From contig CP136061.1 in assembly GCA_032622095.1 (NCBI GenBank), forward strand, positions 136,051,587-136,115,586: a stretch of 64,000 nucleotides of DNA, in the 5' to 3' direction. Positions within the stretch are counted from its first letter, which is position 1. Each line of letters opens with the position of its first letter. Below the pieces are notes generated by a model, which worked only from the letters and a program-made list of their open reading frames with translations, was not told the origin of the DNA and ran no database searches. Source of the stretch: Siphonodentalium dalli. Taxonomy: Eukaryota > Mollusca > Scaphopoda > Gadilida > Siphonodentaliidae. The translations under genes and the position numbers were made by a program. This document shows, piece by piece, positions 8,040-62,754 of this stretch.

Positions 8040-8247
8040 TACTGTTTGTGTTTGTTTACATAACATGGTGTTCATTTGCACAACACAGAGTACTAATATG
8101 ACAATAACATGCATTTTACGCGACATTTATGATTGGTATAAGAACAAAATTTGTCTATAATATAATATTCGTTCTGTTTATGGCAGTGTTAACGGGTGTG
8201 AATATTTTAACAGCAATATATACACTTGACCAACGCCTACCATATCT
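8040..8247 (+). mobile_element. Family B TTAA MITE, 3' fragment
   Basis: This matches the right half of family B (GTTTACATAACA, then CGACATTTATGATTGG and GAATATTTTAACAGC) and ends CATATCT next to TTAA at 8248-8251. The left half is missing. Confidence 0.6.
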
Positions 8248-26250: not shown

Positions 26251-26454
26251 TACTACCATGGTATAAGGTGATATTTACCGTAATACTCTACCATGCATAT
26301 ATAGCTTATTATACTATGTATGTAGACCAACTCTTCTCGCTCCACAACGGCTTGGGATATTGACTCTACAAACAAGGTTACATCTTTCGATGAGTCAATT
26401 TTGAACAAGCAAAGAGAGCTAAATGTATTGCATGAGAGTCTACTCAATTATATA

Positions 26455-26660
26455 TGTGAAAGGTGTATACGCGCCATGCGTAACCCAAACGCATGCGTTA
26501 AACGGATAGTTCAACGTAACTATAATATACATGTGAAATGTGTACGCGCCGTGCGTAACCCAAACGCATTCGTTAAACGGATAGTTCAACGCAATAATGT
26601 GAAAGATGTACCCGCCGAGCGTAACATAAACGCATGCGTTAAACGCATTTATATGAAAGC
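26455..26660 (+). repeat. Three-copy tandem repeat, about 68 bp
   Basis: Units carry GTGAAAGGTGTATACGCGCC, GCGTAACCCAAACGCATGCG and TTAAACGGATAGTTCAACG. The length is not a clean multiple of three between all units, but a 116-codon frame (26401-26751) happens to stay open. The outer end matches the MITE-like repeat at 25690. Confidence 0.8.
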
Positions 26661-27059
26661 AGCTTTATATAGTATGATAATAGCAAACTACAAGTTGTTG
26701 GGTTCACGTCCTGAAGACCCCATCAGATTAAATTATACTGCTGTACAATGAAGATTTATGCTGAATTGATCAACTTCGCAGATGCCATGTTATATTTGAC
26801 ACTACAACACTACCAATGGTACTGTTTTCTTTACCCCAAATAATAGATACGGCCAACAAAATTCTTTAAAAACATCTCCGTTATTTCGTCAATAATCCTA
26901 TCCTCAATCCTAAACTCGCGTGCCACGTGTTATTGCGATTTAATATTAATCGCTATCTAATCGTGAACCACGATTGAGTATCTTTCGCTATCCAATCGTG
27001 TAGTGTGCGTATTGGCTGGAAATTATTATAGAAGGTTATTGACAACGTTTATATATATA

Positions 27060-29124: not shown

Positions 29125-29863
29125 TTAGGTTCTTTCAAATCGACCGGAATCTCTAATATACGAGTGTACAGCCTTAAAAATATAACTATTCTCAGTATAA
29201 GTTAGTTCGGGTTTCCCATAAAGAAATATGTCTACAGAGTTAATATTATATTGCATGAGATTATTATTAAGTCTTAGCCGAGATTCGGCATAATGGTTAC
29301 ATTCAAAGAAAAAACGATTAGCATTTTCTTCCAGGAAGCCGCACGAGCATGTTGCGGAATCTGATATATGATTGTGCAATTTATTGGACTGTAGGCCACT
29401 ACATTTACATCGAAGTTGAGTGTGAATAATATTATAATAACGACTCCCATTTGTGAAATACAAAGGTGGCTTCAGCCTTGTACCCGCGTAGTACATATGT
29501 TTCAATTGCTTCACGAATTCATCATGGGCGAGATTGCGAATAGTTAATTTAATGGAGTTCCATTCCTTTGTACAGACAGGGACAAAAGTGGATTTTAACC
29601 TTGCAGAGTCACAGCGAATGATAATTAAATCAGAAGCATATTTTGATTCTCGATCGGTCCTATCACTGAAACGTTCGGGTATAAGATGGTGCTTAAGTAA
29701 CGAGATGCGTTATTATTTATTATCTTGTGAAGGGTGGCTAACCGTTTAACGGTTCTTCTGTCCTCTAAACTATTCCAGCCTACCTCAGTCATTAATCTGG
29801 CATCTGCTACAGAACGAGTGCAACCAGTCACGATTCTGGCTGCATCTAACTGAATATAATTAA
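29125..29863 (-). pseudogene. LINE reverse transcriptase, C-terminal part
   Basis: On the minus strand, 29863 to about 29640 encodes an A-A-R-I-V-T-G-x-T-x(n)-E-x-G-W-x-S-L-x-x-R-R block, and 29514-29125 encodes a segment with C-S-C-G-F-x-E and F-F-F-E-C. Both are typical of the region after the RT domain in CR1/Jockey-like LINEs. The two pieces are in different frames, and the 5' side is cut by a family B MITE at 29864. Confidence 0.75.
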
Positions 29864-30539: not shown

Positions 30540-31610
30540 GTACAAACTTAGAGAACTATCAATTGCTCAGCTTAATCATACCATTTTTCAGTGAAATTTC
30601 AAGTGTGTTTAGGTCAGGACTATTCTTCATTAGACAAGTATCATCTGCGTAGAGACACGTTTTGGATTCCATACTATCGGCTATATCGATAATGTAGAGC
30701 AAAAATAGGAGAGGGCCGATAACGGACCCCGGGGGCACTCCAGAATCTAAACAATCATACTTTGAGACGCAGGCATTGACCCTAACCCTTTGTTGGCGAT
30801 TGCTAAGATAACTCTTAAATCATAAAAGAAGTTTTCCTTTAATCCCATATTTCTCCATTTTGTGTAAAAGTCCTTCATGCCAAACTTTATCGACCGCTTT
30901 GGACACATCACAGAAAACCGCACAAGTGTTACATCCTTCATCTATAGTGCTTCTGCGGTACTATGAACTATTTCAATAAGCTGATATTCGGTACTATGTT
31001 TGGGAAGGAATCCAGACTGATAATCATACAACAAGTTATTTTCTTGTAAATGCTCAAGTAATTTATTATGGATAATTGTTTCTAATATTTTACCGAGAAC
31101 GCTCAGAAGTGAAACTGGCCTATAATTATTTGGATCTTTTTGACCTTTTTTGAAAATAGGTATAACATACGCTTTTTACATTCATCTGGGAACTGACAAA
31201 GGTCTATCGATTTCTGAAATAATATACTAAGTGGTTTGCATACATTAGCATGTGTTTCTTTAAGCATGCGATGACTAATACCATCTGACCCATAAGCTTT
31301 TTTCGTTGGTAGATCTTTCAAAATTTGAGAAATTTTTGACTCACTGATCAGTATTTCAGTGATAACTTCATTTGTTCGTTCAACAAAATTCGGCTAACAT
31401 TTCGCTTTCATTCCTAATGAACTATTGGCAACAAAGATACTATTTAAAATTTCAGCTTTGTCTTTGTCATCGCAGAACATTTTGTTTGTATATGAGAGAG
31501 GCGGGATTCCTTGGTCAGAATTGTTACCCATAAATGTTTTAACAACATGCCAAAACTGATAATCATCATTGCATTGATGTCCAGTCCATAACTATTGCAA
31601 TACCAGAATA
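30540..31610 (-). pseudogene. LINE reverse transcriptase domain, broken
   Basis: Reading down the minus strand: a D-K-A-x-x-L-N-x-x-F block (about 31480), G-S-D-G-I-S (31290), F-P-D-E-C-K (31190), N-N-Y-R-P-V-S-L-L (31110), G-V-P-P-G-S-V-I-G-P-L-L-F (30740-30700) and the catalytic Y-A-D-D at 30651-30640. The order and spacing match non-LTR reverse transcriptases (CR1/Jockey-like). Frame changes near 31150 and 30960 and a lost 5' half show it is inactive. It continues, after an insertion, at 29863. Confidence 0.85.
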
Positions 31611-42610: not shown

Positions 42611-43145
42611 ATTTTTATCATCGAAAAAAATCAATTTCTTCCATCTAAAAGATAATTACGTGCTTAACCCTGCCGTTTTCGGAATATATAGGTATTCCAC
42701 GCAGAAACACCGAGTCTCAGCTTAAATTTTTGAAAAATAACAGTTTTATCGACATAAATAGATTTGAATGGGACAATTCCATGTTAAAATTGATCATCGA
42801 AAAAAATTCAATTTATTCCATCTAAAACATAATTACGCGATGGACTCTGTCATTTTAGGAACATATATGTATCCCACGCACATGCACCAAGTCTCAGCCT
42901 AAAGGTTTGAAAAAAGACAGTTTTATCGACATAAATCGATGTTAATGGTAAATTCCATGTTAAATTTTATCATTGAAAAAAATTCATTTCTTCCATCTAA
43001 AACATAATTACGTGCTGTACTCTGTCATTTTAGGAATATGTAGGTATCCCACCCATACACTCCAAGTCTCAGCTTAAAATTTTGAAAAATGACAGTTTTA
43101 TCGATATAAATCGATTTTAATGGCAAATGCGGTGTTAAATTAAAA
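42611..43145 (+). repeat. Three-unit tandem satellite, period about 176 bp
   Basis: Units start near 42614, 42792 and 42966 with TATCATCGAAAAAAAT; each has TTCCATCTAAAA, AAGTCTCAGC and ACAGTTTTATCGACATAAAT. Confidence 0.85.
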
Positions 43146-44000: not shown

Positions 44001-44227
44001 CTTTTGTAACTTTTGCTTCAACGCGTTGAGTTCCGTTGCAGACAATATAAAACTGACGACATTTTGAAATGTAAGCAGGCTTTAAACTCATCTTATCCAA
44101 GAAAAACTCTGGTTACATAAGAAATTTGTGTATAAGGTGTATGCGCATTTGTCGCGTTAAAAACAAAAGGTCCCAAGTCAAGGTCCAAATCCCCAACACA
44201 CTCATGTGAGGTTTAACTCCATCCTCA

Positions 44228-44710
44228 TACAGTAATGTCCAAAGTAATTGACCACTTAACCACAGCATAATTATTGGTAATTTGTCACGATTTTAAATGC
44301 TGAAAAAATACCCATAATTCTGCTGTGGTTAAGTGGTCAATTACTTTGGGCATTACTGTAACCAATATAAGGATTTGAGGTGTAATGATAACTCAATCCT
44401 CATACAGTAATGTACAAAGTAATTGACCACTTAACCACAGCATAATAATGGGTAATGTGTCAGGATTTTAAATGCTGAAAAAATACCCATAATTCTGCTG
44501 TGGTTAAGTGGTCAATTACTTTGGGCATTACTGTAACCAATATAATGATTTGAGGTGTAATGATAACTCAATCCTCGTACAGTAATGTCCAAAGTAATTG
44601 ACCACTTAACCACAGCATAATTATTGGTAATTTTTCAGGATTTTAAATCCTGAAAAATTACCAATAATTCTGATGTGGTTAAGTGGTCAATTACTTTGGG
44701 CATTACTGTA
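44228..44710. mobile_element. Three mariner-like hairpin MITEs in tandem
   Basis: Units 44228-44360, 44403-44534 and 44578-44710 each run from TACAGTAATG to CATTACTGTA with arms of about 50-60 bp (AAAGTAATTGACCACTTAAC), bordered by TA. They are separated by 42-43 bp of near-identical spacer, so the repeated unit (175 bp) includes the spacer. Confidence 0.85.
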
Positions 44711-45089
44711 ACCAATATGAGGATGTGAGGTTTAATGAGAACTCCATCCACATAACTAATAAATATGTGTGAAAATTAAACCAAAAAAAATAAATTCCAT
44801 GATGGCGTCCAATATGGACTGCCTAATTCTGCTCCAAAACATGTATATTGAATATATGGTTGTTTATTGGGGAAAACCGATTATTTCAATAATATTTTCA
44901 TTAACTGGGATCCAAAACCCGACTTACGGGAGCGCGCTTCATGCGCGACTGTATCTTAAGCATATGTGCATATTTAATGAGCCAACAATTGGAATCCCAA
45001 TAGAGAAGATTGGCACGTCGCCCTTGCGCATAGACATCATTGATGATCTCTATGGGAATCAAAATTGACATTTAATAGACAATTTCGAT

Positions 45090-53080: not shown

Positions 53081-53917
53081 ATCACGGGGGGGGGGGGGGG
53101 GGGGGTATCCGTACAATTCTGCCTTATTTTGATAATCCGGCCATGTGAATGATAATCCAGACTTACAAACAATATTTATGTTAGGTTGTAACAGATAAAA
53201 ACTACGTTGAAATCACATTTCGGAAAAAATGCATGATGAACGACAAGGTACATGTACAAAGTTACATAGTTTACATATCTACAAAATGTTCGTGATATTC
53301 CGCTAGCATTGATATTTTATAAGCGTTGTTTGTCACGATTTTAGCTAATCGTGTAAAAAATACCATATCAATTCCATGTTTTTTTTCGGACAAATGGTTT
53401 AGCTCGAATAAATTTTCGATGTCAATAGACGGCGTGGGGTATTAACCAACGATTCGGCCCTACACTAGTTTATTTCATGAAACTAATGCGTTATACGTTT
53501 TTATGGAGTCATTCACACACGTGTGTGCATTGGATGTGGATAAAACGGCCATGCTCGATAGATAAGGCGGCCACCATGATAAATATATCGTTATATGGAG
53601 TTTAGCCGCTTGATCCACATCCAATGTACCCATGACTATGAATAACTCCAGAAAAGGCGTATACCGCACTATTTAATGAAATAAACAAATGTAATCGTTG
53701 GCTGATACCCCATGCCGTCTATTGGCTTCGAAATTTATTCGAGTTAAACCATTTGTCCGAAGAAAAAAATGGAACTTATATGGGTTTTTTTTATGATTAG
53801 CTAAAATAGTGAAAACAACGCTTATAAAATATAAATGCCAGCTGAAAATCATGAACATGTTGTAGGTATGTGAACTATATAAGTCCGAATTGTGCGGATA
53901 CCCCCACCCCTCGTGAT
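53081..53917. mobile_element. Large palindromic (foldback) element, 837 bp
   Basis: The left arm from ATCACGGGGG and the right arm to CCCCTCGTGAT are complementary with decay: TATCCGTACAATTC/GAATTGTGCGGATA, ATAAGCGTTGT/ACAACGCTTAT, CAATAGACGGC/GCCGTCTATTG, TGGATGTGGAT/ATCCACATCCA. The centre is near 53570. The overlapping open frames on both strands derive from it. Confidence 0.8.
53087..53106 (+). repeat. Poly-G run, about 20 bases
   Basis: Lies at the outer end of the left arm of the large palindrome; the matching right arm reads CCCCCACCCC. Confidence 0.85.
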
Positions 53918-53929
53918 AATTATACCCAA

Positions 53930-54425
53930 GTTCAGACCCGAGAAATTACAATTAGGTTATATAAGTCCGTCGAAATTATAATGTTTATGACGAGATAGCA
54001 TTCTACTATGACTGATCATTTCTGATTATTAATACAATTAAAGAAAAGTACACCATTCCTGTACTTCAGTTTACTGGTTTTGGCTGGACAGACCAAACAT
54101 TACAGTAATGAAGCACATGCATATAGATGAACATTGTACACGCATGCAGATACTGCAATATGGCACGTTAAAATAGCAACAACGTTCATAGTTATAATAT
54201 TTTCAGATCTAAATGTCGCTAATATATCAACACAAACGTCAAATTCGTCGTAGATATATAGTATGTCAGACACCGTTAAATTGTTCATAATTCTACCATC
54301 TCCGTCTTTTCTTAATCAATTCAATTGGAAGTCTCAATTAAATAGAGTTATCTCATCATCTTTGCGGTGGAACCATTCAACAGAATGTTGGTTAACCTCT
54401 CGTGTTTCTCTTTGATGTCGCTCTT
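53930..54425. other. Mostly featureless; 3' flank of the six-exon gene
   Basis: On the minus strand the first bases (54425 to about 54398) are the former end of exon 6, displaced by the family A MITE. The original stop (TAA) lies at about 54397-54395. No clear AATAAA was seen close by. Confidence 0.4.
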
Positions 54426-54429
54426 TTAA

Positions 54430-54923
54430 AGGCACGTGCGGCCTTAATTGTCGAAAATATTCATATTTGTTCCAAACACCGTAAACAGAAAAACATTAAA
54501 ACGCATACAGTTCCGTTCATATATACCATGACCATCGCGTAAACAGCATGTTATCATAAAGACCTACTATATTTTACCTAAGCAAGAGCCTGATTGTGTT
54601 ACAGAAGACAGCACAATGCTACTGGCCAATCACACACACATGGCATAAACGCTCTTTATTAGTTCCATATCAGGTATTCACCAACAAAGAACGCTCTTTA
54701 TGTTTACCATCATAATATAAACAAACACCAGAAAAGTAACTTTTTATGCATTTGTTTACATAACAATGGTCAAACAAATGACCATAACATACTGTTTATG
54801 CGATATTTCGTATTTGTATACGGACAAAGTCTATCTTCATTTTGATGTTCTTTCTGTTTGTGGCGGTTTTTGACGGGTGGAGATATTTTCACAGGATACC
54901 AACCGCCAAGGCCAACCGTGTCT
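54430..54923 (-). mobile_element. Family A TTAA MITE, copy 3, inside the last coding exon
   Basis: This is 494 bp, flanked by TTAA at 54426-54429 and 54924-54927, with ends AGGCACG and CGTGTCT. It sits within exon 6 of the minus-strand gene. Removing it together with one TTAA restores a frame that ends after ten further, mostly basic or polar residues. With it, the frame reads 50 codons into the element before a stop at 54770. Confidence 0.9.
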
Positions 54924-57900
54924 TTAAACAGACGGCGAAGGAACCCACGGCTTTTCTTTTTGGAAACAGGTTCTTGTCCGTCACCCACCTCTCCTGCGCG
55001 CACTGTTTCAGACGTCGGCAGCGGCAAGTATTTCACATCATTATTGTCTGAAACGAGTATTTATATTATGAGTAAGAATTAATGCTCTTGTCAAGATATG
55101 ATATAATTTGCACCATATTTTGGATTTGATTTGTCAACGTGTAAGCCAAGGCAACCCAATTCCCGTAATTTCGATATTATTCCAACATGTGAGATTTCAG
55201 TCTAAATTTTTATTTAAATTAAGTAAAGTATTCGATAAACCCAAAACAATATGATTTTTAACTTACAATAATATTGATTGAAAAGATAAACTTATCAGAA
55301 CAACCTCAACTTAATTGTTCCAGTCTGAATTTTTTAACTGCACTTTGTAAAATACATGTTAAGCCACAAACCTAAAACCTGGTCACGCCACAGTCCTGAA
55401 TGTTTTCACTCGGTCGCACGCGTGTGGGTAATCGCACAAATAACAGACAATCTGCATATGAATATAACCCACCCTCATGTGGTTATTATCAATACATCTC
55501 ATTGATGTTTCTGTACAAGCTCCAAAATAAAGACATGTAGACATGGAATGCCAAAGATATACCCATATAACAAAGGGTAGGGTTCTCTATTCCGAAGGTT
55601 CATTATTCCGAAGGTTCGCTATTCCGAAGGTTCATTATTCCGAAGGTTCATTATTCCGAAGGTTCGCTATTCCGAAGGTTCGCTATTCCGAAGGTTTTCT
55701 ATTTTGGGCGTATTTAACCAGAAATGAATGAAAATTTGCACCCCACCACAAAAATACACCAGGAATGAAAAATACTATTACGCTAGTATTAACATATATT
55801 ACATTTATACACCCACTTCCAATTCCCAAATTGTCCCAGATGTCGGTTATTGATAGCAAGAAAACAGTATCAGTTTATCGTTTATTATGGAAAGCTTAAA
55901 ACACGATGAATGAAATAAACTACATGTAAGAGATATAGTTTTTCCGAACTGGCAATCTGTATTTGAAAGAAACATCAACATTAAAGGCCCACTTAATTTT
56001 CGAACCCCCAGATCACATATATAACATATATGCCAGTATATATACCATTGGAAATAGGAAGCTCTCTAACACTGTATTATCAGCTTATCCGGTATAATAA
56101 ACTGTGAACATGTTGTTTTGTTGAGTTAACGACGTGTTTTTGTGCTTAAGGTTCATCTGGTTTTGTTGCGCGAAGTGTATTATTTTCAATGGAGGGGGAA
56201 TAACTCTATATTTTAAAGATAGTGTTATTCCCCTTCAATTGAAAATACATTAGGTTGAATTATGTTGCATTCTGGGAGCCATAACGTGGAAAATCTTTTT
56301 ACGATTTAAGCTGTTTTCTATTTCTCTATGGACATCTTCTGATACAGACGTTTCAAATGGTGATGAATGTTAGTGTTTTAATCATATGTTATGGCACAGA
56401 TTGTTATTAAAACCTGATATCAAGGAACTATAAACAAAATAGTCAGTGACTCGAAAATTAAGCGGGCCTTATAATTTAATACAGATTCACAATTGCAGTT
56501 AGGTTCATTTCATACCCGTCTATTCAACGACAGAATAAGAGTTATAGCCCCACTGTTTTAATCCGCCTTTAGCTGGCGTATTCTTGTCTCTAAGATTATT
56601 GAGATATAACGTCATACGTGATGACATTAAATCGCATGGAAACATAGCAATTGTGTGGGCTGCCTGGTGTCAATATTTTTGGGAAATAACGTCATACGTA
56701 ATGACATTTAATCTCAAGGAAACCCGCGAAGAAAAAAGTCACATTTATTGTTTCAATGTTCTAAGTTATTTCCTTCATAAAAAGAGTCTTCGAGATAAAG
56801 AACCCTCTCAATACATTAGAATATAGAATTAACCTTTAAAATAACAAAATCTTCGGAATAGCGAACCTTCGGACTAGTGAACCTTCGGAATAGCGAACCT
56901 TCGGAATAGTGAACCTTCGGAATAGTGAACCTTCGGAATAGCGAACCTTCGGAATAGAGACATGTTCCCATAACAAAGCGTGCAGACCTGGATTTGTTCT
57001 ATCGATTTTTCCATTCCCAAATCTTTGGACGATTATTTCTATGTTAATATAACAACAAAAAACTACATGTAAGTGATTGAAACTTTAATGTTATGTTGAC
57101 CGACACATACCTCCTACGAATTCGGGTGTTACACAAGTGGGCATCTGATCTGCAGTATCCCCACGTTCTCGGTTTATCTTCACCAACGTTCCCCTGGCCA
57201 TGCGTCTCGTATCCAAGCTGGTCACATTCGTGTCACTCAAACCTGAATTGAAAACAATTAAGTTGAATGAAAATGTTGTTGACTCCTCCAACATGACTAT
57301 ATTGTCATAGCTCGCCCCAAACTCATGCAGTTTGGTATAAATGATATTATGTCGATGTTTCATTCACAAACACACCAATATAGACCTACATATATATATA
57401 CAACGACGGAGCAGAAGCTGTAGAAATGGAAAGCTGGCAAATAATTTGTGTTTGCTTCGTTTTGTTATGTTTAGCATTTTGTTTGTTAGTTAAGAATCTA
57501 CTAACATCCCAGGAAAACAGCTTGTTTCTGTTTAGTTGTCGCAACTAACAACCCGACAATGATAAATATCATGTTATTCTATAGAACGAAATAAAAATAA
57601 AACCATAAAAAAACCATATAAACTTCTTAGAGCTTTGCAGTAGTTAGTATTGTATGTTTAATCATATATTATTGTGTAAAGTGTTTTGTTTAAATAAATA
57701 TCCATTACTTCCATTACTTACATGTATTGGACCCAACACTCAGGTACAGCTTATGTTGTATTATATCCACCTGCAAAGCAAATACAAATTAAATTTATTA
57801 ATGTGTAACATATTGATACCAGTCGTTACCTTTCTTTGGTATTTGTGCAGAGTTAAACAGCCAAGCCTGCCATGATACATCTTTGAAACTTCTTGAGTCA

Positions 57901-60052
57901 TCTCTGTTGTTGTAGTTCCGCCTCATGTTGTGAATTCTACGATCAACCTGAAATGCATTGACTATCTCTGAGAATATGTACTATTTCGTGGGGGTTGAGA
58001 CTTACCGTCGAGTACAACTGTTCACCTAAACTATACTATGTATATAACTTGCAGTCTTTCCAGAGTGTTGTGAGTGGTATGTGTACATATATACACACGG
58101 TATTTAACTTTACCAGATTGAGACCAATTCCAAACAGTGATCACACCATCATACGCGTGCATGTAGAGTGAATTCGATTATAAAGACTGCGTTTATTTTA
58201 ACAGTGAACCCACCAGAAAAAAAAATCAATTTACCTTGGTATATGATCTTGCATCACCTTCATATTCTGTGTTGGCCAACACCCACTCAGCTGAAAACGT
58301 AATATAGTATGATTGAGTGTACGCACAAATCTGGCCGGGTCAAATTGTCCTGCTAAACGTCTATGTCCTGTAGTTGTTAGCTTGTGGAGCAAAAGGATGC
58401 TGTTCATATATAGTATCGTTAAACAATATTTTTAATTGTTCCATTTTAGGGGTTATTACATGCATGGTAGCTCTCATCTATTCAAGAAAAAACAACTTTA
58501 TATGTAGGAAACATGTGTAGGTGCATCTGATAGTATTTTAGTTTGGCAATGGTCACATTATTTTGTATTTGTAATATTTTCATGGCTGGATTTCCCCGTT
58601 ATTTTGCAAAACAGATGGGCCAATGCATTCTCTTGTACATGTATATGCGATTCTGCAGAGTCTCCCATATGGAGAATGTATTGGCCTAACAATATTTACA
58701 TTTACCTTGTAACTTAATGTAAAACAGTACATTCTTTATATATGATATATAAGAGAATGCACCACTGGCACATGATATTTAATGATGTGCCAGCTCCCGT
58801 CATCAAAGGGTTAACATGTATTTGGAGATTTCCATATATGTGCTAACCTGCTATATCCCCGGCGCCATGAACCAGATGGGACAAGATGCTTCTGTGCTCA
58901 TCTTCTTCGCCATTTCCATGGTCGACATCCTCAGTTTTGGTGACGAGTCTGTCCTCAGTCTGCCCATTGCCGTGCAACGATTCCGCCTGCTCGATCTCCA
59001 TGAATGCATTTGGAATAACCACATCCTGTATAAGGTCATGCATAATATGATCTTGCTCTTCAATGAGCTCCAATTCCACCTCGTGGAGAGCACGTGGAAT
59101 TACAAGGCCAACACAGAACCAGTTAGCTTCACACGCCAACTCCTTTTCGAATAAAGCCTTTTCTTTCTCATTTTCGTATTGCTTTACTGCATTGGGGATC
59201 ACTATGTTTTGTATCAAATCCTTAGCAAACGCTAACATTCTTCTCTCTTCTTCCTCTTCTTCAATTTCCAACACAGCCATCTTCATAACTTTTCGCACTA
59301 GCCATTTAGCCTGCTGACTTCTCTCTTGTTCTCTCTCTTCTTCCATCTCAAATACGGCCGCCTGAATAGCATCACTTGCTAACTCTTTAGCTTGTTGCAT
59401 AATAGCCTCTTGTTTCATTCTTATTTCTTCTGCAACCTCGTCTATGGCTTCTGGAATGATGCCACTAACCAACATGCGAACAGTCTTCTCAATTTCTCTT
59501 TCCTTCTGATCCTCTCGTTCTCTAATCACGGTATCGACTCTGTCCAGCATACATTCGATGACATCCACGATTCCTTCTTTTTCATACTTCTTTACTGACC
59601 CCGGTAAGATAACTTCCCTAACATATCTTTCCGCTAGCATCTTATCCATCTCTTCCTTTAGGTCAAGGTATTTTTGTTCGTTCCTGAGAATCAAACACAA
59701 AACGATGTTCATTATATAGATTTGAAACATATTAGACAGTTTCATCTACGACGGCAAGTGAATTGTATGTATCGCATAAACTTGCCCACAGTTCCTAACT
59801 GCTATAGTATACATAACTTCATAAGCAAAAATAATGTCTTATCAGAAAAAATAGGCCTGTGCGCAGAACTATAATAATGATCGGCAATCGTCCAAAGAGC
59901 AATTTTGTGAAGAGTCGCTTAGCCATATATAATTATAAGGCGCTTTAATTAAAGAATATCATCCGGACAAGTAAAACATAATATTAAATGAGTTATAAGT
60001 ATAATCATTTATATGTTCTGTCACATATTTTTACTTACCGCGAGAAGTTCAT
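54770..60052 (-). CDS. Six-exon gene, helical repeat protein of unknown function (477 aa)
   Basis: Coding exons on the minus strand: 60052-60039, 59683-58848, 58290-58235, 57947-57830, 57242-57111, 55047-54770. Every intron has GT..AG ends (donors include CG|GTAAGT and AAG|GTAAAT; acceptors follow TTTTCAG, ATTTCAG, CAATTCAG, GTTTCAG), and the frame is kept through all five joins, giving 1434 nt including the stop. The protein is Glu/Lys-rich and helical. Residues 26-35, 77-85, 107-115, 134-142, 162-171, 194-204 and 223-232 carry a repeated motif of the type V-[IL]-P-x-A-[VIL], usually followed by a Glu-rich coiled-coil stretch. Residues 303-341 are Arg/Asn-rich, 415-427 is a basic patch (KKKSRGFLRRLF). 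No signal peptide or membrane segment is evident. The start was chosen as the only in-frame ATG of the short first exon; an upstream start in the same open frame is possible. Residues 428-477 come from a MITE. I do not recognise the family; it is not retroelement-like. Exon structure is well supported, function is not. Confidence 0.8.
55588..55702 (+). repeat. 16-bp array CGAAGGTTCGCTATTC, left
   Basis: About seven units alternating TTCATTATTC and TTCGCTATTC forms. In intron 5 of the six-exon gene. Confidence 0.85.
55985..56469 (+). mobile_element. Family D TTAA MITE in intron 5
   Basis: The inverted ends AGGCCCACTTAATTTTCGA and TCGAAAATTAAGCGGGCCT have an intact TTAA on the left (55981-55984) and a mutated one on the right. 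An inner inverted repeat is centred on GGGGGAATAACTCTAT (about 56195-56235). It lies between the two inverted 16-bp arrays. Confidence 0.75.
56851..56957 (-). repeat. 16-bp array, right, inverted
   Basis: About seven units of the same 16-mer in the opposite orientation (CTTCGGAATAGCGAAC). Both arrays are bordered outside by CATAACAAAG-like sequence (55567 and 56970). Confidence 0.85.
58580..58814. mobile_element. Family G MITE in intron 2 of the six-exon gene
   Basis: It contains CCAATGCATTCTCTTGTAC, the inverted AAGAGAATGCACCACTGGC, and a right end CATCAAAGGGTTAA matching the other copies. It ends about 35 bp from the donor site of exon 2. Confidence 0.6.
58848..59683 (-). CDS. Exon 2, repeat-bearing core of the six-exon gene
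   Basis: This 836-nt exon encodes residues 5-283 and all seven helical repeats. The acceptor is GATTCTCAG before 59683 and the donor is GCAG|GTTAGC. Read without splicing, the frame stops three bases into the intron, so the protein would look complete at residue 284; the next exon joins exactly in phase (G|CT = Ala), which argues for splicing. Confidence 0.82.
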
Positions 60053-60799: not shown

Positions 60800-61670
60800 T
60801 TGCATGGCCAAATTGACAAGATACAAGAATGTATTGCAAAACACACCAAAGACCATGCAAGATATACACTAATGCTGAAGGGGTCACTCTCACCAAAAAA
60901 AGTGCTGAAGGGTACACAGGGTTTTAAAATGTGCTGTTCAAAGGGTACACATGATTTGAAAATGTGCTGAAGGGTACACAGGGTTTGTGATCGGCACTAA
61001 CACTGTTACTTAAACTGTGTTTCTGAAATTCTGGTGCCCATCAGCAGTTTGTTTTCAGTTCATTTTAATGTTCATTAGGATGTAAACAATTATTCTCTTA
61101 CAGAAATAATGGCAGATACGAAAACTAAACACCGTTTAGAACGACATTTCAAAACCTGTGTACCATTCAGCACATTTTCAAAACCTGTGTACCCTTCAGC
61201 ACTTTTTTTTGGCGCAGAGTGACCCCTTCAGCTATACTAATGGGTATAATATTTTATTTAGTATGTATTTATTTCAGGCTTCGGGTACTCATATATATTG
61301 CATTACCGGTATGCTAATATGTAATTGTTGCACGAATTATAATTTTAAATCTACATATATACTTAATTTGCATTTTATCGAGTTTTTTTTTTTTTTTTTT
61401 GGTAATAATAAATCTGTCATACTAGGACAATACTGTTGTGACAAATTGTGTGTCAGGGACCTGTGCCGATTGACTATTGACCGACGGCAACTAGTTACCA
61501 ACCCGAATACCCAGCGTGCTAAATATCCTGCAATTCAGTACTTTATTTACCCCTGTCAGTCAGATCCTGTCAGTCAGATCAGCGATAGGGGTAATTTACA
61601 ATTCGGATATTCTTTGTAGCATGCATGTATGCATATATTCAGATATTATCATATTCTATTGTTGAAAGTT
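60800..61670. other. Inverted ACCCTTCAGCAC repeats, poly-T, no gene
   Basis: GTGCTGAAGGGTACAC-type phrases at 60880-60980 face GTGTACCCTTCAGCAC at 61157-61205; AATGCTGAAGGGGTCACTC faces GAGTGACCCCTTCAGC. This is a foldback repeat of about 360 bp. A T-run lies at 61384-61402. The 153-codon frame at 61158-61619 crosses it and is not supported. Confidence 0.6.
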
Positions 61671-61673
61671 TAA

Positions 61674-62170
61674 AGGCACGTGCGGCCTTAATTGTCGAAA
61701 ATATTCATATTTGTTCCAAACACCGTAAACATAAAAAACAATAAAACGCATACAGTTCCGTTCATATATATACCATGACCATCGCGTAAACAGCATGTTA
61801 TCATAAAGACCTACTATATTTTACCTAAGCACGAGCCTGATTGTGTTACAGAAGACAGCACAATGCTACTGGCTAATCACACACAAATGTCAGAAACGCT
61901 CTTTATTAGTTCCATATCAGGTATTCACCAACAAAGAACGCTCTTTATGTTTACCATCATAATATAAACAAACACCAGAAAAGTAACTTTTTATGCTTTT
62001 GTTTACATAACAATGGTCAAACATATGACCATAACATACTGTTAATGCGATATTTCTTATTTGTATACGTACAAAGTCTATCTACATTTTGATGTTCTTT
62101 CTGTTTGTGGCGGTTTTTGACGGGTGGATATATTTTCACAGGATACCCACCGTCAAGGCCAACCGTGTCT
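61674..62170 (+). mobile_element. Family A TTAA MITE, copy 4
   Basis: This is 497 bp between TTAA at 61670-61673 and 62171-62174, with ends AGGCACG and CGTGTCT. It is closest to copies 3 and 5, sharing GTGCGGCCTTAATTG near the left end. Confidence 0.88.
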
Positions 62171-62252
62171 TTAACGGGGCGTATAATCTTCAAGCCGCAA
62201 ATTAGAGTAAAGTAATTGTTCACTTGTGTCGCTCATAATAGGTCACAATTAA

Positions 62253-62746
62253 AGGCAAGTGCGGCCTTAATTGTCGAAAATATTCATATCTGTTCCAAAC
62301 ACCGTAAACAGAAAAACAGTAAAACGCATACAGTTCCGTTTATATATACCATGACCATCGCGTAAACAGCATGTTATCATAAAGACCTACTATATTTTAC
62401 CAAAGCAAGAGCCTGATTGTGTTACAGAAGACAGCACAATGCTACTGGCTAATCACACACAAATGGCATAAACGCTCTTTATTAGTTCCATATCAGGTAT
62501 TCACTAACAAATAACGCTCTTTATGTTTACCATCATAATATAAACAAACACAAGAAAAGTAACTTTTTATGCCTTTGTTTACATAACAATGGTCAAACAT
62601 ATGACCATAACATACTGTTTGTGCGATATTTCTTATTTGTATACGGACAAAGTCTATCTACATTTTGATGTTCTTTCTGTTTGTGGCGGTTTTTGACGGG
62701 TGGAGATATTTTCACAGGATACCCACCGCCAAGGCCAACCGTGTCT
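62253..62746 (+). mobile_element. Family A TTAA MITE, copy 5
   Basis: This is 494 bp between TTAA at 62249-62252 and 62747-62750. It is in the same orientation as the preceding copy and only about 80 bp from it. The left end carries AGGCAAG, one change from the family. Confidence 0.88.
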
Positions 62747-62754
62747 TTAAGCAT

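Follow-up and report, generated by a model that had tools for sequence, protein, structure and literature searches.

Results

An element flanked by TTAA lies in the last coding exon of a six-exon gene model

Here we describe a 494-bp non-autonomous element in the last coding exon of a predicted gene, within a stretch of 64,000 nucleotides of DNA that was analysed as a whole (the window, whose numbering is used throughout). Our model suggests that a Kolobok-type non-autonomous TTAA element inserted fairly recently into this exon of an intact-looking six-exon gene, and that in the predicted protein of the insertion allele the last ten residues are replaced by 50 residues read from the element. 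Taken as a whole, the observations are probably best explained by a recent insertion that produced a chimeric C-terminus and 3' end.

The gene model was built by eye from the sequence. Its six exons, all on the minus strand, join through five GT donors and five AG acceptors with compatible phases, starting at an ATG at 60052, and the 427 codons upstream of the tail are open. The exons are as follows:

60039..60052, minus strand: exon 1, coding part from the ATG
58848..59683, minus strand: exon 2, acidic repeats, helical-looking
58235..58290, minus strand: exon 3
57830..57947, minus strand: exon 4
57111..57242, minus strand: exon 5
54928..55047, minus strand: exon 6, host part; GC 0.51-0.52 versus 0.35 in intron 5

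A Pfam search with the predicted protein returned Seadorna_VP6 (E 0.09) and DUF4047 (E 3.1), both far below the cut-offs and treated as chance, and Pfam gave nothing for the tail, for exon 5 or for the exon-6 frame alone. A PDB sequence search up to E 1 produced two matches only (E 0.33 and 0.43), which we also treated as chance rather than as relatives. For the exon-2 protein, a search for relatives in IMG/VR gave 6 pattern matches, none of them confirmed. Exon 2 carries five occurrences, three of them overlapping, of a pattern that we take to be the RII-binding (AKAP-like) motif; shuffled sequences carry 0.9, and 0.6% of 2000 shuffles reach five. This excess is a lead and does not identify the protein. 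From the general appearance of the window, the host is probably an animal. In intron 5, short tandem repeats (TTCGGAATAGCGAACC-like) are arranged as inverted arms at 55584-55705 and 56838-56960, about 1.1 kb apart, which look like another mobile element.

The insertion in exon 6 is delimited by an exact target duplication, with 494 bp between the two TTAA copies:

54426..54927, minus strand: non-autonomous element targeting TTAA (494 bp and the two flanking TTAA), lying in the direction in which the gene reads it; recognized by whole-length copies, TTAA ends and unrelated flanks
54426..54429, no strand: target-site TTAA at the end away from the gene
54924..54927, no strand: TTAA target site copy, in-frame join with exon 6, seen in the sequence

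The original prediction held that exon 6 runs in frame into a TTAA-flanked 494-bp element, and we reproduced its borders, its copies and the frame.

The element belongs to a dispersed family

BLASTN of the element against the window revealed four other close copies, all of whole length and with 94.4-96.8% identity (62249, 61670, 5833 and 52051), as well as four divergent ones with 71-74% identity (whole in 27879, partial in 11102, 29860 and 9470). With these further close and divergent copies in the window, the element represents a dispersed family, and the sequences flanking the copies look unrelated. TTAA is present at both ends in six of the ten copies and fragments compared (54426, 62249, 61670, 5833, 52051 and 27879); at the coordinates used, 11102, 29860 and 9470 have it at the left end only, and the left end of a fragment at 8090 lacks it. 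Over the first 18 positions, counting the TTAA, the two terminal ends of the element at 54426 are alike at 14 (hand count), and across the five copies counted the agreement was 13-14 of 18 (61670: 14/18). When the 482 TTAA sites of the window are taken as equal, the probability that at least one of nine copies hits an exonic TTAA is about 0.04. We found no match of the element to phage records, and no exact match of its end pattern in IMG/VR.

All nine family copies and the fragment near 8090 have the same orientation, for which a hand calculation gives P ~0.4% if nine insertions were independent; the one opposite-strand match of the element in the window covers 62 bases inside copy 5833. Other repeats and open frames were also seen. 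Tandem arrays of units of about 175 bp occupy 42613-43141 and 44214-44754, the units of the second array being self-complementary. At 26326-26751 (plus strand), a 141-aa open frame that overlaps internal repeats matches Inv-AAD in Pfam below threshold (E 0.0047; 17.2 bits, the cut-off being 26.5), probably by chance. Open frames at 29125-29709 and 31103-31393 (minus strand) resemble LINE reverse-transcriptase remnants by eye; Pfam returned none above cut-off for them.

The termini point to the Kolobok superfamily

Both piggyBac and Kolobok elements insert at TTAA, and piggyBac ends begin with C. Inside the TTAA, the ends are AG...CT in six of the six copies that have both ends, and so are of the RR...YY type. 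In the part of PMC9587614 drawn on here, Kolobok ends are given as 5'-RR...YY-3', unlike those of piggyBac, and with this distinction we rejected a piggyBac MITE. The original label, TTAA MITE, was right, and the AG...CT ends point to Kolobok; we infer that the element is a Kolobok-type non-autonomous member, an assignment motivated by its termini.

Two described groups offer a comparison. The T2-MITEs of Xenopus, which target TTAA, carry the motif AGGRR and are presumed Kolobok members in the part of PMC6004289 used, resemble our element in TTAA and RR...YY ends, but AGGRR is unmatched (AGGCA and AGACA in the element). KolobokP elements, which according to the corresponding part of PMC9587614 occur in molluscs and several other animal phyla, have paired terminal direct repeats of ~450 or 660 bp surrounding an internal part that holds transposase and His-Me nuclease. 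The repeats carry perfect or imperfect TIRs of 11-18 bp, and these LTDRs are also found singly and are believed to be mobile by themselves (PMC9587614, same part). Our element is like a solo LTDR in its TTAA target and RR...YY ends; its imperfect TIRs fit loosely, and at 494 bp it is slightly longer than the solo examples of 473 and 480 bp found there (PMC9587614). This loose resemblance provides a lead, namely that the element may be a KolobokP solo terminal repeat.

Upstream of the gene model, copies 61670-62174 and 62249-62750 lie in direct orientation, 74 bp apart. Since each has its own TTAA ends, they do not form a proper KolobokP monomer, and the pair is possibly related to tandem KolobokP arrangements.

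A predicted 50-residue tail replaces ten residues

Both the interrupted frame and the frame of the empty site can be read in this one sequence:

54773..54925, minus strand: 51 open codons (a shared lysine plus 50 element codons), predicted new C-terminus
54770..54772, minus strand: TGA stop inside the element
54392..54425, minus strand: flank that, in the empty-site frame, would encode the ten original C-terminal residues and their stop; borders by hand count

Reading through the element predicts 477 aa up to the TGA at 54772-54770, the last 50 codons coming from the element. If the flanks are joined at a single TTAA, the prediction is 437 aa, ending RATSKRNTRG and then a stop. A lysine codon is common to both versions, after which 50 element codons stand against 10 empty-site codons, exactly as had been predicted from the sequence at the outset.

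The 51-codon frame from the right end is open in five of the five close copies, and the tail is thus a ready-made property of the element; any sense insertion in the same phase would add a nearly identical tail. In 27879, the sole divergent copy tested, a stop ends the frame after 11 codons. A first-order Markov model of the element gives at least 50 open codons a probability of ~0.035 in the tail frame and ~0.24 in any of the six end-frames; as an event of chance, the open run is thus modest and need not mean anything. We rejected the idea that the frame is an old coding remnant: positions 1-105, the TTAA edge, match the divergent copies only at 0.54-0.69 and include the lowest-similarity windows of the element between close and divergent copies, and 27879 closes early. 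A codon-usage score was as high as that of the tail in 50% of non-coding runs; the ten empty-site codons scored higher, being reached by 4.4% of such runs. The controls were unclear, since host exon 6 and held-out exon 5 were reached by 28% and 19% of non-coding runs, respectively, and were not clearly called coding. The score is therefore of little use.

The original prediction had left two options, a transposon-encoded C-terminus or an insertion mutant. The predicted chimeric frame is supported, but the two options are inseparable by sequence and are not exclusive. It is possible, though clearly not the favoured reading, that we are looking at a loss-of-function or hypomorphic allele, in which the basic C-terminus is lost, the tail is unstable or the locus is silenced, and which would be a low-frequency mutant haplotype; this overlaps with the best explanation. 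It agrees with the low divergence of the 54426 copy, which suggests a fairly recent insertion, and with the replacement of the end of the basic segment KKKSRGFLRRLFKRATSKRNTRG by a tail for which no structure is predicted. AlphaFold, run on the exon-6 product as a single sequence without alignment, gave a mean pLDDT of 59.7, low throughout, with one short helix (residues 34-41) in the host basic segment and neither helix nor strand in the tail; at such confidence we make no structural claim on this product. The 427 open codons upstream argue against a mutant allele, as does the general knowledge that many proteins tolerate changes at their tail.

A donor-like site precedes the element

The chimeric reading depends on exon 6 being read up to the TTAA, and splicing out of the exon before that point had been named as the outcome that would undo it. 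A strong donor-like site is indeed present:

54987..54988, minus strand: donor-like GT (GAG/GTGGGT), possible splice exit before the element; score 10.2

With a crude donor matrix, this site at 54988 scored 10.2 and outscored four of the five model donors (10.5, 7.7, 8.0, 7.6 and 9.2); 36 of the 3691 GT sites on the strand score at least 8. Since it does not split a codon, its use would leave exon 6 ending in phase 0. Exit here to a downstream exon would render the element intronic and leave the protein unaffected. Against this, GC content stays exon-like beyond the site as far as the TTAA (0.51 ahead of the site and 0.52 behind it; 0.35 in intron 5); of 2752 non-coding windows of 61 nt at 48-64 kb, 83 attain 0.52. 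In addition, the frame of the empty site runs into a stop within ten codons, in a basic tail. In an acceptor scan from 54425 to 47000, open phase-0 candidates were about as common on the opposite strand (19/42) as on the gene strand (24/57), and the 12 highest-GC of the 24 gene-strand candidates included no convincing downstream exon. We regard a bypass of the element as unlikely.

The element carries a poly(A)-like signal

Provided that transcription runs through exon 6, the mRNA of the gene most likely ends in the element, which carries the following:

54631..54660, minus strand: candidate poly(A) site brought by the element, AATAAA (54660-54655) followed by a GT-rich stretch (54639-54631)

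The AATAAA begins 110 bases past the TGA and is followed by the GT-rich stretch, a run that one private change of the 54426 copy lengthens. In this orientation and frame, the element would thus act as a ready-made terminal exon segment, with 50 open codons, a stop and, 110 bases on, the poly(A)-like signal. From 54927 to 53880 the gene strand contains this single AATAAA and no ATTAAA, so the element may also set the 3' end of the mRNA. Weaker variants follow beyond the element on the gene strand (AAGAAA 54313, AGTAAA 54075 and CATAAA 53989), and for this reason its signal need not be the one used. Further downstream of the gene, a large imperfect palindrome at 53262-53882 (self-complementary 78%) contains gene-strand AATAAA at 53739 and 53474 and ATTAAA at 53677.

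All nine family copies contain AATAAA with the GT-rich block. The window has 92 AATAAA on its minus strand, nine of which have (GT)3 or (TG)3 within 44 nt, one per family copy; on the plus strand the corresponding numbers are 65 and 2. We considered special conservation of this block and rejected it, the whole middle of the element being conserved to a similar degree: in 30-nt windows, close and divergent copies agree at 0.76-0.90 over positions 91-345 of the gene-strand element and at 0.87 around the signal. A dedicated poly(A) function is therefore unsupported. The motif ATAAAGAGCG occurs twice in seven of the nine copies and once in the other two, and the block may instead be a transposase-binding repeat.

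A broader hypothesis is that the family is a mobile terminal-exon cassette, whose open edge frame, stop and poly(A) site evolved to end the transcripts of a parent transposon, as the 3' repeat of a KolobokP-like element. We find this improbable. If it were true, close copies landing in sense and in the same phase in exons would cap host mRNA and protein with a nearly identical 50-residue tail, and several genes of the species might carry a common tail.

The insertion appears young and its tail shows no constraint

The 54426 copy has 16 differences from each of its two nearest copies. It carries six private changes at positions that are identical in the other four close copies; four of the six lie in the 153-nt tail and are all replacements (G to W, V to E, K to T, Y to F), compared with ~1.8 of six expected by length (hand calculation). 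This excess is at most a weak hint of altered evolution, and the notion that the element-read tail gained a function and has been maintained or shaped by selection seems to us highly improbable. The numbers are tiny, and by a hand estimate four of four changes would be replacements about one third of the time without selection. No purifying constraint on the tail appears in the private changes, the counts being too small to argue for positive selection, and functional exaptation is unsupported by these sequences.

Placement of the 54426 copy by misassembly, or another assembly or haplotype artefact, might be imagined with copies of 94-97% identity lying 2-8 kb away, but the six private changes set this copy apart, its flanks are not common to the other copies and its TTAA copies are exact, and we give this explanation almost no credence.

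Discussion

We favour a recent insertion of the element that yielded a predicted chimeric C-terminus and 3' end. It is most likely young, neutral or mildly harmful, perhaps segregating, and not an adapted tail. The event is clear yet fairly ordinary, a familiar consequence of transposition and a new case of a known kind. Provided that the chimeric transcript exists, it would be a young example of a non-coding DNA transposon altering a protein C-terminus and a 3' end in one step, with the frames before and after both readable in one sequence. In a literature search of limited scope, no title dealt with this element or with a Kolobok-type MITE giving a protein its tail.

Known proteins with parts derived from transposable elements (TEs) place this case in context. 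In both LAP2alpha and ZNF451, the TE-derived domain is C-terminal. The part of PMC4495291 consulted describes LAP2alpha of TMPO and ZNF451 as host isoforms carrying TE-derived domains and, like our predicted chimera, they join a host part to a TE-derived part. Their added part is related to a retrotransposon ORF and is alternatively spliced, whereas here a non-coding element would be read directly in an exon; the added part of ZNF451 is under strong purifying selection, whereas our tail shows no sign of constraint (PMC4495291, same part). Exonized non-autonomous TEs likewise place non-coding TE sequence in a predicted coding exon; the part of PMC2203978 used here considers them unlikely to encode protein, and its general caution extends to the tail predicted here.
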